Of a stretch of 39,571 nt of DNA, positions 13,842 through 39,571 are shown piece by piece. Made by a program: the position numbers and the translations under genes. Source of the stretch: Roseivivax isoporae LMG 25204 (GTDB taxonomy: Bacteria > Pseudomonadota > Alphaproteobacteria > Rhodobacterales > Rhodobacteraceae); assembly GCF_000521865.1 (NCBI RefSeq), contig NZ_JAME01000038.1, positions 1 through 39,571 of the forward strand, given 5' to 3'. Numbering within the stretch: position 1 is the stretch's first letter; each line of letters opens with the position of its first letter. The notes beneath the pieces are model-generated. The model was not told the origin of the DNA. It did not search any database and saw only the letters and a program-made list of their open reading frames with translations.

Positions 13842-15218
13842 ATGGAAGTCGCGATCCTCTTCCTCCTGACCGTCGGCCTCATGCTGATCGGCGTGCCCAT
13901 CGCCGTCGCGCTGGGCTTCTCCTCGACACTGTTCCTGCTGGTCCTGTCGGACACCTCGCTGGCCTCGGTCGCGCAGAGCTTCTTCCAGGCGATGGACGGG
14001 CACTACACGCTGCTCGCCATCCCGTTCTTCATCCTCGCCTCGGCCTTCATGTCGACGGGCGGCGTGGCGCGGCGGATCATCCGCTTCTCCATCGCCTGCG
14101 TCGGCCATTTCCCGGGCGGGCTCGCCATCGCCGGCGTCTTCGCCTGCATGCTCTTCGCGGCGCTGTCGGGCTCCTCGCCCGCGACCGTGGTCGCCATCGG
14201 CTCCATCGTCATCGCCGGCATGCGGCAGGTGGGCTACACCAAGGATTTCGCGGCGGGCGTCATCGCCAACGCAGGCACACTCGGCATCCTGATCCCGCCG
14301 TCGATCGTGATGGTGGTCTATGCCTCCGCAACCGACACCTCGGTCGGGCGGATGTTCCTCGCGGGTGTCATCCCCGGCATCCTTGCGGGCGTCATGCTGA
14401 TGGTCACGATCTACGTCATGGCCATCGTCAAGAAGCTGCCGCGCGGCGAGTGGCGCGGCTGGGGCGAGGTCGCGGCGTCGGGACGCGACGCGGCGTGGGG
14501 CCTCTTCCTCATCGTCATCATCCTCGGCGGCATCTACGGAGGCATCTTCACGCCGACCGAGGCCGCGGCGGTCGCCGCCGTCTACGCCTTCCTCATCGCG
14601 AACTTCGTCTACGCGGACATGGGGCCGCTCAAGACCGCCGAGGACCGGCCGAACCTGCCGCTCTGGCGCAAGCCGCTGGCCCTCGTGACCGTGTTCTTCC
14701 ACAAGGACACCAAGGACACGATGTTCGAGGCGGGCAAGCTGACCATCACGCTGATGTTCATCATCGCCAACGCGCTCATCCTCAAGCACGTCCTGACCGA
14801 CGAGCAGATCCCCCAGCGCATCGCCACGGCCATGCTCGACGCGGGTCTCGGGCCGGTCATGTTCCTCGTGATCGTCAACGTGATCCTGCTGATCGGCGGG
14901 CAGTTCATGGAACCCTCGGGGCTCCTCGTGATCGTCGCGCCGCTCGTGTTCCCCATCGCGATCGAGCTCGGGATCGACCCGATCCATCTCGGCATCATCA
15001 TGGTGGTGAACATGGAGATCGGGATGATCACGCCGCCCGTGGGCCTCAACCTCTTCGTGACCTCGGGCGTGGCGGGCATGTCGATGATGGCGGTGGTGCG
15101 CGCGGCGCTGCCCTTCCTCGCGGTGCTCTTCGTGTTCCTGATCCTCGTGACCTACGTGCCGATCCTGTCCACGTGGCTGCCGACGATGATGATGGGGCCA
15201 GAGATCGTCATCCGCTGA
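13842..15218 (+). CDS. dctM: TRAP transporter large permease DctM
   Basis: DctM is the large membrane subunit that forms the Na+-coupled translocation path. It has 458 residues and about 12 hydrophobic segments. Family motifs include GVPIAVALGFSS, ALSGSSPATVVAIGSI, AAGVIANAGTLGILIPPSIVMVVY, and the C-terminal repeat GMITPPVGLNLFVTSGVAGMS. A cytoplasmic insertion of about 70 residues (ADMGPLKTAEDRPNLPLWRK to MFEAGKL) is characteristic of this DctM group. GAGGG lies 7 nt before the ATG. It is the last gene of dctPQM, followed by a GC hairpin at 15242. Confidence 0.95.
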   Translation: MEVAILFLLTVGLMLIGVPIAVALGFSSTLFLLVLSDTSLASVAQSFFQAMDGHYTLLAIPFFILASAFMSTGGVARRIIRFSIACVGHFPGGLAIAGVFACMLFAALSGSSPATVVAIGSIVIAGMRQVGYTKDFAAGVIANAGTLGILIPPSIVMVVYASATDTSVGRMFLAGVIPGILAGVMLMVTIYVMAIVKKLPRGEWRGWGEVAASGRDAAWGLFLIVIILGGIYGGIFTPTEAAAVAAVYAFLIANFVYADMGPLKTAEDRPNLPLWRKPLALVTVFFHKDTKDTMFEAGKLTITLMFIIANALILKHVLTDEQIPQRIATAMLDAGLGPVMFLVIVNVILLIGGQFMEPSGLLVIVAPLVFPIAIELGIDPIHLGIIMVVNMEIGMITPPVGLNLFVTSGVAGMSMMAVVRAALPFLAVLFVFLILVTYVPILSTWLPTMMMGPEIVIR

Positions 15219-15241
15219 CGGGGCCCGAGGCCGCGGCGACG

Positions 15242-28482: not shown

Positions 28483-28558
28483 GCCGGTATAGCTCAGCTG
28501 GTAGAGCGTCTGATTTGTAATCAGAGGGTCGGGGGTTCGAGTCCCTCTGCCGGCACCA
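28483..28558 (+). tRNA. tRNA-Thr (anticodon UGU)
   Basis: This is a 76-nt cloverleaf. The acceptor arms GCCGGTA and TGCCGGC include one G-U. The D-arm is GCTCAGCTGGTAGAGC. The anticodon stem TCTGA/TCAGA has the loop TTTGTAA, giving UGU. The T-arm contains GGTTCGAGTCC. CCA is encoded at 28556-28558. It stands alone between divergent ggt and the end of the RND gene. Confidence 0.97.
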
Positions 28559-36296: not shown

Positions 36297-39200
36297 TCAG
36301 CCGATCTCGGCCAGCCTCTCGCGCGCGGTGCGGAGGGCGGATTCCTCCTCCTCGCGCGCCGCAAGCGCCTCGCGCGTTTCCTCGACCACCTCGTCGGGTG
36401 CGCTCTCGACGAATTTCGGGTTCGAGAGCCGGCCGCGCAGGCCGCCGATCTCCTTGCCGAGCTTGCCGAGCGTCTTGTCGAGGCGGGCCATCTCCTCGCC
36501 CACGTCGATGAGGCCCTCCAGCGGCATGCCGAAGGTGGCCCCCCCAACGGGGATGGTCACGGTGCCCTTGGGGAAGCTCTCGACCCGCTCGAGCGTGGCG
36601 ATGCGGGCGAGCCGCTTCACCAGCGCCTCGTTCGCCTGCCAGGCGCGGTCGCCGTCGGCATCGAGACCCAACACGAGGAGCGGCACCTCCATGCCCGCCG
36701 GCACGCGCATCTGCGCGCGCGCGGACCGCACGCCCTCGATCAGCGCGATGACCCAGGCCATCTCGCGCTCGGCCTCGGGTGTGACGAGGGCCGCCGCAGC
36801 GTCCTGCGGCCAGTCGGTAACCACCAGCATGTCCGCGCCGAGCCCCAGTTCGGACCAGAGTTCCTCCGTCACGAAGGGCATGAACGGGTGCAGCATGCGC
36901 AGGCAGCGGTCGAGCACCCAGCGCATGGTCTCGCGCGTCTCCTGCACGGTTTCGGGCGCGTCGGAGGACAGAAGCGGCTTGGCGAACTCCACATACCAGT
37001 CGCAGACGACGCCCCAGACGAAACTGTAGAGCGCGTTTGCCGCGTCGTTGAAGCGGAACGCGCCGAGGGCCGCGTCGACCTCCTCGCGCACCTTCGCGGT
37101 TTCGCCCACGATCCAGGCGTTCGCTGTCTGCCGCCGCGGCGCCTGCATGTCCCAGCTCGCCACATCCGGCGCGAAGACGCCGTTCATCTCGGCGAAGCGG
37201 CAGGCGTTCCAGAGCTTGGTGCCGAAGTTGCGGTAGCCCGCGATGCGGTCCTTCGACAGCTTCAGGTCGCGGCCCATCGCCGCCATGGAGGCGAGGGTGA
37301 AGCGCACGGCGTCCGCGCCGTATTCCTCGATCAGGTCCAGCGGGTCCAGCACGTTGCCGAGCGACTTCGACATCTTCTTGCCCTTCTCGTCGCGGACGAG
37401 CGCGTGGACATAGACGGTGTCGAAGGGCCGTTCGCCGACGACCGCATACTGCATCATCATCATCCGGGCGACCCAGAAGAAGATGATGTCGAACCCGGTG
37501 ATCAGCACCGAGGTCGGGAAGTAGCGCTTCAGTTCCGCCGTCTCCTCGGGCCAGCCGAGCGTGCCGATGGGCCAGAGCCCGGACGAGAACCACGTGTCGA
37601 GCACGTCGGGGTCGCGGAAGACGGGGACGGTGCGCGGCGCTTGCCGCTGCCCGGTCGCGATCCCGCTGTCCGCGCTCTCGACATAGTCCTGCAGCAGTTC
37701 CAGCGCGCCGGCCTCGTCGGCGGTCACCCGGAAATCGGCGTCCTCGCCCCAGAGCACGCGCAGCTTGTCGATCGCCTCGGCTTCGGTCGCGGCGCAGACA
37801 TGGTGCCACTCGGTGCCGCCGCCGGGATTGGGCGCGTACCAGACCGGGATCTGGTGCCCCCACCACAGCTGGCGCGAGATGCACCACGGCTCGATGTTCT
37901 CGAGCCAGTGGAAATAGACCTTGCGGTCGCGCTCGGGCAGGATCGTGACCGTGCCGTCGCGCACCGCATCGAGCGCCGGCCCGACGATCTTCGTCGTGTC
38001 GACGAACCACTGGTCGGTCAGCATGGGCTCGATCACCACCTTCGAGCGGTCGCCGAAGGGTTGCATGATGGGCTTCGCCTCGACTAGCGGCACGAGCTGA
38101 TCCGCGCGCGCCTCGCCGCCTTCCTCGGGGGCCGCGGGGGCCTTGGTCCCGAGCCGCGGATCGGTGGGCGGCACCATGACCGCGAGGCCCTCGGCGGTGA
38201 TCTGTTCGACCACGCGGGCGCGCGCCTCGAACCGGTCGAGCCCGCGCAGCGCGTCGGGGACGAGGTTGACCGCGTCCACCTCGGTCTCGGTCAGGCTGCG
38301 CTCGCCCTTGGCGACCGACAGCGCGAGGGCGGCGGCCTCGGCATAGGGGGCGCCGTCGGAGCGCATGCGCGCCGCGGTATCCATCAGCCGGTAGCAGGGA
38401 ATGTCGCCGCGCTTGGCCACCGCGTAGTCGTTGAAGTCGTGCGCGCCGGTGATCTTGACCGCGCCCGAGCCGAAATCGGGATCGGGATACTCGTCGGTGA
38501 TGATCGGGATCAGGCGGCGATGTTCCTTCGGCCCCACGGGAATCTCGCAGAGCTGGCCCACGATCGGCGCGTAGCGCGCATCCGACGGGTGCACCGCGAC
38601 CGCTCCGTCGCCGAGCATCGTCTCGGGGCGCGTGGTCGCGATGGAGATGTAGTCGCGCTCCTCCTCGAACAGCACGGTGCCGTCCGCGTCGCGCTCGACA
38701 TAGGTGTAGGTCGCACCGCCGGCGAGCGGGTACTTGAAGTGCCACATGTGGCCCGGCGTCTCGACGTTCTCGACCTCGAGATCGCTGATCGCGGTCTCGA
38801 AATGCGGGTCCCAGTTCACCAGCCGCTTGCCGCGGTGGATCAGGCCCTTGTCGTAGAGGTCGACGAAGACCTTGATGACCGCGTCGTGGAAGTTGCCGTC
38901 CTCGCCCGCGGGCGCGCCGGGGGCGCCGGACATGGTGAAGGCGTTGCGCGACCAGTCGCAGGATGCGCCGAGCCGCTTCAGCTGGTTGATGATGGTGCCG
39001 CCGGACTGGCCCTTCCACTCCCAGACCTTCTCGAGAAAGGCCTCGCGGCCCAGGTCGCGCCGGCCGGCATTGCCCTCCTGCGCGAGCTTGCGCTCGACGA
39101 CCATCTGCGTGGCGATGCCGGCATGGTCCTGCCCGGGCTGCCACAGCGTGTCGTCGCCGCGCATCCGGTGCCAGCGCACGAGGATGTCCTGCAGCGTGTT

Positions 39201-39377
39201 GTTGAAGGCGTGGCCCATGTGCAGGCTGCCCGTCACGTTCGGCGGCGGGATCATGATGCAGAAGGTGTCGGCGCCGTCCCGCGCATGGGCGCCCGCGCGG
39301 AACGCGCCCGCCTCTTCCCAAGCGGCGTAGAGCCGTGCCTCGGCTTCCTGCGCGTCGAAGGTCTTGTCCATCGCCAT
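36297..39377 (-). CDS. valS: Valyl-tRNA synthetase
   Basis: This class I synthetase has 1026 residues, slightly longer than E. coli ValS (951). The HIGH motif is HMGH (53-56 in [15 protein letters not shown]) and the KMSKS motif is at 668-672 ([11 protein letters not shown]). The CP1 editing domain carries [10 protein letters not shown], and [15 protein letters not shown] is present. A C-terminal coiled coil closes the protein ([24 protein letters not shown]). The stretch 340-440, rich in charged and Pro residues, adds the extra length. The ATG at 39377 is chosen over that at 39371 because GGGA lies 8 nt upstream. The leader contains a small GC hairpin (39397-39413), with the predicted small RNA beyond it. 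Confidence 0.97.
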
Positions 39378-39497
39378 GGTCGTCGTCCCGTGCCAGGCCC
39401 CGCACGGCGGGGCGCATCCGTCAGTCGCGCACGGTCTAGCGAAGCGGGACGGGAAGGGAAAGCGGCCGTGCCGCGCTTTGTGGGGGAGGAAAGGAGG

Positions 39498-39571
39498 GCG
39501 GCGACCCCCAAGGGAGGAGGAAAAGGAGGTCGCCGCGCAGTCCGAAGGCCCCAAGGGAGGAGGAGAGGACC
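39498..39571 (-). ncRNA. Tandem CUCCUCCC-loop hairpin small RNA (CcsR/cuckoo type), 5' end beyond window
   Basis: On the minus strand two hairpins follow each other. The first (39571-39547, cut by the edge) has a stem of at least 6 bp, GGUCCU/GGGGCC, with loop CUCCUCCUCCCUU. The second (39536-39498) has a 12-bp stem, GCGGCGACCUCC/GGGGGUCGCCGC, with a 15-nt loop UUUUCCUCCUCCCUU. Both loops expose CUCCUCCC, complementary to Shine-Dalgarno GGGAGGAG. The imperfect stem pairs are G-U on the minus strand but would be A-C on the plus strand, which fixes orientation. This matches the R. sphaeroides CcsR / alphaproteobacterial cuckoo RNA design. The pyrimidine-rich tail (39497-39481) may aid release of the transcript. 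Confidence 0.75.

Follow-up and report, generated by a model that had tools for sequence, protein, structure and literature searches.

Sequence comparison makes it very probable that the last 74 bases of the DNA analyzed here, read on the minus strand, are the 3′-most unit in an array of CcsR-type RNAs repeated in tandem, and that this array lies in the 3′ UTR of a DUF1127 (ccaF1-like) gene. The window, by which we mean the whole stretch of 39,571 nt that was analyzed, is contig C38 in its entirety, taken from a 4.9 Mb draft genome of Roseivivax isoporae in 203 contigs, and it ends inside the tandem repeat; an earlier note on this sequence had described the left hairpin as cut. The same note had proposed a CcsR/cuckoo architecture, which is supported by the DUF1127 gene, the same-strand array, the two-hairpin units and the CCUCCUCCC loops described below; its deduction of the system from 74 bases was largely right, and what is new here is mainly context, namely the length of the array, an orphan copy, a shared upstream element and leads to targets. 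The features, all on the minus strand, are as follows.

39498-39536: hairpin 2 of the CcsR-type unit, a 12-bp stem with a 15-nt loop containing CCUCCUCCC (from folding and covariation)
39542-39571: hairpin 1 of the CcsR-type unit, a loop with CCUCCUCCC and 3′ arm GGGGCCUUCGG, the 5′ arm being cut by the contig end (from complete homologues in relatives)
39512-39519: anti-Shine-Dalgarno loop motif CUCCUCCC of hairpin 2, invariant in the alignment except for one nearly invariant column
39555-39562: anti-Shine-Dalgarno loop motif CUCCUCCC of hairpin 1, its columns invariant in the alignment
39462-39474: possible end of the array transcript, a weak terminator-like site, GCGGC-ACG-GCCGC followed by UUUCCCUU (one found against a shuffle mean of 0.1)
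36297-39377: valS, encoding a 1026-aa valyl-tRNA synthetase, which follows the array on its 3′ side and is outside the RNA; the first 400 aa are 82-90% identical to those of 8/8 genus relatives

The two hairpins are adjacent and have variable stems, and each holds CUCCUCCC embedded in CCUCCUCCC in its loop; the second helix is complete, while the first is reconstructed from relatives. Hairpin 2 has a predicted fold of -26.0 kcal/mol with 12 pairs and a 15-nt loop, and the fold of the 132-nt region has a z-score of -3.30, with none of 200 shuffles equally stable. Together with the covariation described below, these values confirm the claim that two adjacent minus-strand hairpins present anti-Shine-Dalgarno loops, and the suggestion that the wobbles in the stems pair only on the minus strand is borne out by the last 74 bases folding to -36.0 kcal/mol on this strand and to -31.5 kcal/mol on the plus strand, with one pair of alignment columns (61/88) being G-U in 21 of the 31 rows. 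Folded alone, hairpin 1 (39542-39571) takes a shape that differs from the one originally drawn, because the contig end removes the outer portion of the 5′ arm; the intended fold of hairpin 1 is a prediction from complete units in relatives. At gathering score Rfam gave only a tRNA for the window, and the hairpins matched no family, leader families included; we built a covariance model for the two-hairpin unit (R1) in this analysis. A tRNA gene is present in the window at 28483-28555 on the plus strand.

Alignment of 35 units (33 from genomes G001-G007 together with the orphan copy and the unit of the window), of which 31 are distinct, yields two helices. Across the 31 distinct rows 97.4% of the cells pair and 11 of the 15 pairs have changed on both sides, and although both the derivation of the structure from these same rows and their kinship favor it, the counts of changes are large. 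The covariation score was reached by none of 500 shuffles, and control structures slid by one to three columns were 38-65% paired. The first helix retains four pairs in the aligned model (90% paired), this small number arising because the alignment there is loose, and the loop motif is nearly invariant across all 35 units.

A start codon that would put the hairpins inside a coding sequence had been named in the earlier note as evidence against its reading, and an open reading frame of this kind does exist, since an ORF in the valS frame can be followed upstream as far as a TTG at 39554. This frame could be taken to mean that the hairpins are an N-terminal extension of ValS, or simply low-complexity purine/pyrimidine sequence arising by chance, and four of eight genus relatives (G001, G006, G007 and G008) have no stop in the valS frame between the last loop motif and the ATG. 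The other four do have an in-frame stop in this interval (G002, G003, G004 and G005, that of G004 lying just past the motif), the stems covary, and the units are tied to DUF1127 rather than to valS. On the stops and the covariation we reject the coding interpretation of the TTG frame, and we give an extension of ValS or a chance origin almost no prospect of being correct.

The array can be seen at greater length in the genus relatives (G001 to G008, of which G003 is Roseivivax halotolerans and G007 is Roseivivax lentus), where one strand carries, in this order, a DUF1127 gene, two-hairpin units and valS. The DUF1127 frame is 5′ of the array on the same strand in all seven relatives whose contig reaches it (G001-G007), and valS is 3′ of the array in all eight. 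A divergent mraZ gene is found 5′ of DUF1127 in G002, G003, G005 and G006 as well as in the R. isoporae genome itself (G000); in G001, G004 and G007 at least 3 kb 5′ of DUF1127 were examined and no mraZ was seen. Each unit has two stem-loops and several homologous units stand in tandem in these relatives, with six in the ungapped arrays of G002, G004 and G005 and four in those of G003 and G007; in R. isoporae the assembly covers the 5′ flank of the array and its last unit. The earlier description of the hairpins as lying upstream of valS is correct as to the 3′ neighbor, but they are one two-hairpin unit of a longer array rather than a stand-alone pair, and the 5′ neighbors are DUF1127 and mraZ.

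Four of the nine assemblies (G000, G001, G006 and G008) are broken or N-filled inside the array: that of G001 has at least six units with 95 Ns inside, that of G006 contains 410 Ns, and the G008 contig (C8) begins within the last hairpin. Because arrays break or gap draft assemblies, CcsR copy number in draft genomes is likely to be under-counted.

In a wider sample, too, the units follow the DUF1127 gene. A search of genomes with a DUF1127 alignment (A2) gave at least 466 relatives, of which the best 80 loci, the ones closest to the query, were kept; in 77 of them two-hairpin units occur on the same strand no more than 1300 nt 3′ of DUF1127, compared with none of the 80 in an opposite-strand control. 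The number of units per locus, counted by motif pairs, ranges from one to seven. Two loci (L119 and L127) have DUF1127 and no unit in the stretch examined, which was up to 1300 nt, and a third (L125) has none within the 52 bases of 3′ flank examined. The R1 model gave 274 matches with E up to 0.1 from 82 sources, including eight in L071; applied to whole genomes with stricter filters it matched 28 of 61, all 28 being among the 37 genomes from the same family; the 24 from other families of this class gave none. The nine same-family genomes without a match under these filters include G008, which was missed because its array is cut.

The hairpins precede the valS start by about 120-194 nt on the same strand, and with valS 3′ of the array in every genus relative one could suppose that they are a cis-acting leader of this gene, such as an attenuator or T-box. 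In the flanks examined at the 80 loci, mraZ is present without valS in 47, valS without mraZ in 14, both in one, and neither in 18, such that valS accompanies only 15; these counts, and the presence of units at 77 of the 80, argue that the array goes with the DUF1127 gene, its proximity to valS being a local feature. There is in addition a weak terminator-like site between the array and valS, and neither a match to an Rfam leader family at gathering score nor a constant association with valS was found. A valS leader is thus very unlikely.

The other side of the array in this genome is most likely on a second contig. The genome contains four DUF1127 matches, three of them above the family cut-off, and on contig C54 (15,383 bases) a DUF1127 (ccaF1-like) ORF at 15006-15224 is divergent from mraZ; the DUF1127/ccaF1-like gene that the earlier note proposed to look for further to the right is probably this one. 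C54 ends 159 bp after the ORF with ...CCCGAACCGAGCTG, a context which in relatives is the start of a unit. C54 and C38 are taken as two sides of one array because relatives have the order DUF1127, array, valS and because the two contigs end matchingly, and the position of DUF1127 5′ of the array on the same strand, which is that of CcsR and CIN1 loci and is seen directly in the relatives, is deduced from C54 in this genome. We infer the junction between the contigs and the presence of further units between them. A direct join with no more units was set aside, since the AA before GGTCC that is expected from relatives is missing, and since a single copy would presumably have been joined by the assembler. 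The three further DUF1127 matches in the genome are L051, L052 and L053, one of them below the cut-off, and the only two genome matches of the R1 model lie elsewhere.

The bases just past 39571 on the plus strand had been predicted to be TTCGG, and are probably TTCAG instead. Four units in relatives (one in G003 and three in G005) have a 3′ arm, GGGGCCTTCGG, identical to that of the window, and because all four read CTGAAGGTCC we expect TTCAG here; the terminal sequence of C54, ...CCGAGCTG, fits this expectation. Elsewhere in the genus (in G001 and G002, for example) there are units that have another sequence here and also another 3′ arm. The prediction would therefore hold in four of five letters and in the pairing of the stem, with a U-G pair replacing C-G, and fail in the fourth letter, as judged from the units of relatives.

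We have also examined the sequences upstream of DUF1127, in 86 distinct regions comprising eight from the genus and 78 from other loci; an earlier set of 88 regions counted two loci twice (L075, which is G007, and L081, which is G003). The pattern TGC[AG]-N6-GCAT occurs in 82 of the 86 regions and ATTGTGCA in 75; in the set of 88 the counts were 84 and 77, against means of 0.67 and 0.5 in 30 mononucleotide shuffles, the observed counts being inflated by the kinship of the loci. A copy of TGC[AG]-N6-GCAT with no preceding TTG, distinct from the one that overlaps TTGTGCA, is present in 78 of the 86 regions, and in 71 of the 74 regions where this is measurable it starts 36-37 nt before TTGTGC. 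A conserved block before DUF1127 (L058, 14903-14927; L071-L150) has TGC[AG]-N6-GCAT followed by ATTGTGCA and GCAGCA, and resembles the LsrB site of NfeR1. The NfeR1 promoter is described as having an LsrB-bound TGCA-N6-GCAT at -72 to -60 (PMC10746234), and we estimate by counting that the Roseivivax element would be at a similar distance from the presumed -10. By eye the element fails to match the published VtlR box, GCAT-N3-TG-N3-T, and matches the NfeR1 form TGCA-N6-GCAT.

An RpoH-type promoter had also been suggested to lie further right. Besides ATTGTGCA, a pattern of this type, TTG-N17-22-CAT.T, occurs in 54 of the 88 regions against a shuffle mean of 4.8, and the RpoH family has one match over the cut-off and a second below it; an RpoH-like promoter region upstream of DUF1127 is thus plausible, with the reservation that in this genome the -10 is weak.

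An extended form of the upstream pattern, ATGCRNNNNNNGCATNGCNGCNTTG, which was written after viewing the aligned regions, occurs twice in the genome with up to one mismatch, and its backward control not at all. One occurrence, with one mismatch, is before DUF1127 on C54; the other, with no mismatch, is on contig C1 and precedes an orphan two-hairpin CcsR-like RNA (L317; C1 211911-212002, minus strand) by about 64 nt; by eye this RNA lies between Lrp-like and uvrD-like genes. The genome search found no DUF1127 on C1. Two other matches, in G004, also have no DUF1127 motif nearby; one (L306) is without the box, and in the other (L307) the first motif is preceded, at about 50 nt, by a single TGCA-N6-GCAT in unextended form. 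In a limited literature search we saw no report that connects either LsrB or VtlR to CcsR or to Roseivivax.

Candidate targets were sought in nine genomes as AAGGGAGGAG, the exact 10-nt complement of the loop, located 3-10 nt before an ATG. There are 56 such sites, nine of them in the R. isoporae genome, and none for the backward pattern; 55 were kept (L211-L219 and L222-L267), one opposite-strand site within the G005 array being left out, and two of the ORFs are shorter than 80 aa. By Pfam, solute-binding proteins account for 16 of these 55 genes and for none of 29 genes with the Shine-Dalgarno control GAAAGGAG (Fisher p = 8e-4), a comparison made post hoc after viewing the hits, with a control that is small and has some doubtful starts, and with any strong Shine-Dalgarno sequence pairing in part with the loop. 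The control retained 29 of 30 loci (one 16-aa ORF was dropped), and its classification used 25 of the 30 Pfam families matched there, the rest being judged from N-termini; a first control pattern was dropped as having too few sites (eight). Several of the genes recur, as judged from Pfam or by eye, including PaaK in four of the nine genomes, SoxA in three, and a 174-aa protein with a Tat-like leader in four. As a lead, the candidate targets in R. isoporae include the mRNAs of periplasmic solute-binding proteins, of phenylacetate-CoA ligase, and of sulfur oxidation, the last with soxA and a flavocytochrome c sulfide dehydrogenase-like protein.

The near invariance of the anti-Shine-Dalgarno motif in the 35 units would also be expected if the loops mimicked the 3′ end of 16S rRNA globally, damping all mRNAs with strong Shine-Dalgarno sequences and having no defined set of targets. 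Exact 10-nt complements are few, however, with nine in the R. isoporae genome, and the recurrence of complements before PaaK, SoxA and the 174-aa protein places them before the same kinds of genes, and we consider a global mimic fairly unlikely. It could be argued, too, that the array is mainly a protein-binding decoy comparable to CsrB, titrating the DUF1127 protein or another RNA-binding protein, with pairing to mRNAs being secondary. The many similar loops in tandem (up to seven units by motif, and eight by the model in L071) would suit such a role, and CcaF1, according to published accounts, binds RNA and acts on the CcsR transcript (PMC10253847, PMC8625941). Yet the loop is an exact anti-Shine-Dalgarno motif, the same motif in NfeR1 is reported to silence by seed pairing (PMC10746234), and the orphan copy is on a contig with no DUF1127 match; a decoy as the main function is unlikely.

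We prefer an array of mRNA-pairing RNAs, and tentatively suggest, as a possibility with rather less than an even chance, that a LysR-type activator similar to LsrB/VtlR may, alongside RpoH, control the CcsR-type RNAs of the Rhodobacteraceae as a regulon, in which array length could set dosage and which may turn down TRAP/ABC solute-binding uptake and sulfur oxidation through exact AAGGGAGGAG ribosome-binding sites. The upstream element common to two CcsR-type loci and the short list of candidate targets are both leads that can be tested. By analogy with CcsR1-4 of R. sphaeroides and the rhizobial NfeR1, one stress-induced transcript would be cut by RNase E, with the help of the DUF1127 protein, into short RNAs, each of which would offer two anti-Shine-Dalgarno loops for pairing with G-rich ribosome-binding sites and so block translation of selected mRNAs. 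CcsR lowers C1-metabolism mRNAs (flhR).

The RNAs AbcR1 and AbcR2 of the Rhizobiales have another sequence and structure and are not known to form tandem arrays behind a DUF1127 gene. They resemble the Roseivivax RNAs in having similar anti-Shine-Dalgarno motifs; their regulon is described as mostly transport and metabolic mRNAs, and their genes as activated by LsrB/VtlR (PMC10746234). Nearer are αr14/NfeR1 (SmelA075 and SmelA099) of Sinorhizobium and other rhizobia, which are grouped with CcsR in one anti-Shine-Dalgarno (cuckoo) family, RS0680a of R. sphaeroides being described as two stem-loops with the motif in each and placed beside the rhizobial CCUCCUCCC RNAs (PMC3927594). NfeR1, which is reported to silence ntrBC through anti-Shine-Dalgarno seeds at the translation start (PMC10746234), shares the CCUCCUCCC loops on variable stems and the upstream TGCA-N6-GCAT element (PMC10746234, PMC3927594), but differs in having three or four hairpins per RNA and a sigma-70 promoter, and the text consulted makes no mention of a DUF1127 gene.

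The closest counterpart is CcsR1-4 (formerly RSs0680a-d) with ccaF1 (RSP_6037) in Rhodobacter (Cereibacter) sphaeroides, where a DUF1127 gene is likewise described as followed by same-strand tandem RNAs with two anti-Shine-Dalgarno stem-loops each. According to published accounts, ccaF1 is a DUF1127 gene that has an RpoHI/RpoHII promoter, RNase E cuts CcsR1-4 from its 3′ UTR, and the protein that it encodes contributes to their maturation (PMC10253847, PMC8625941, PMC8307010, PMC5036791, PMC7866481); the transcript is described as stress-induced, processed by RNase E and CcaF1, and Hfq-dependent (PMC8625941, PMC7866481, PMC5036791). A putative RpoH-type promoter region upstream in Roseivivax may be a further likeness. 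The Roseivivax array differs in abutting valS, in the additional orphan copy carried by this genome, and in its length, with four to six units in the ungapped arrays (and at least six in the gapped array of G001) as against four in R. sphaeroides. A published stress-RNA system is in this way extended through the genus, with arrays longer than the four-copy case.
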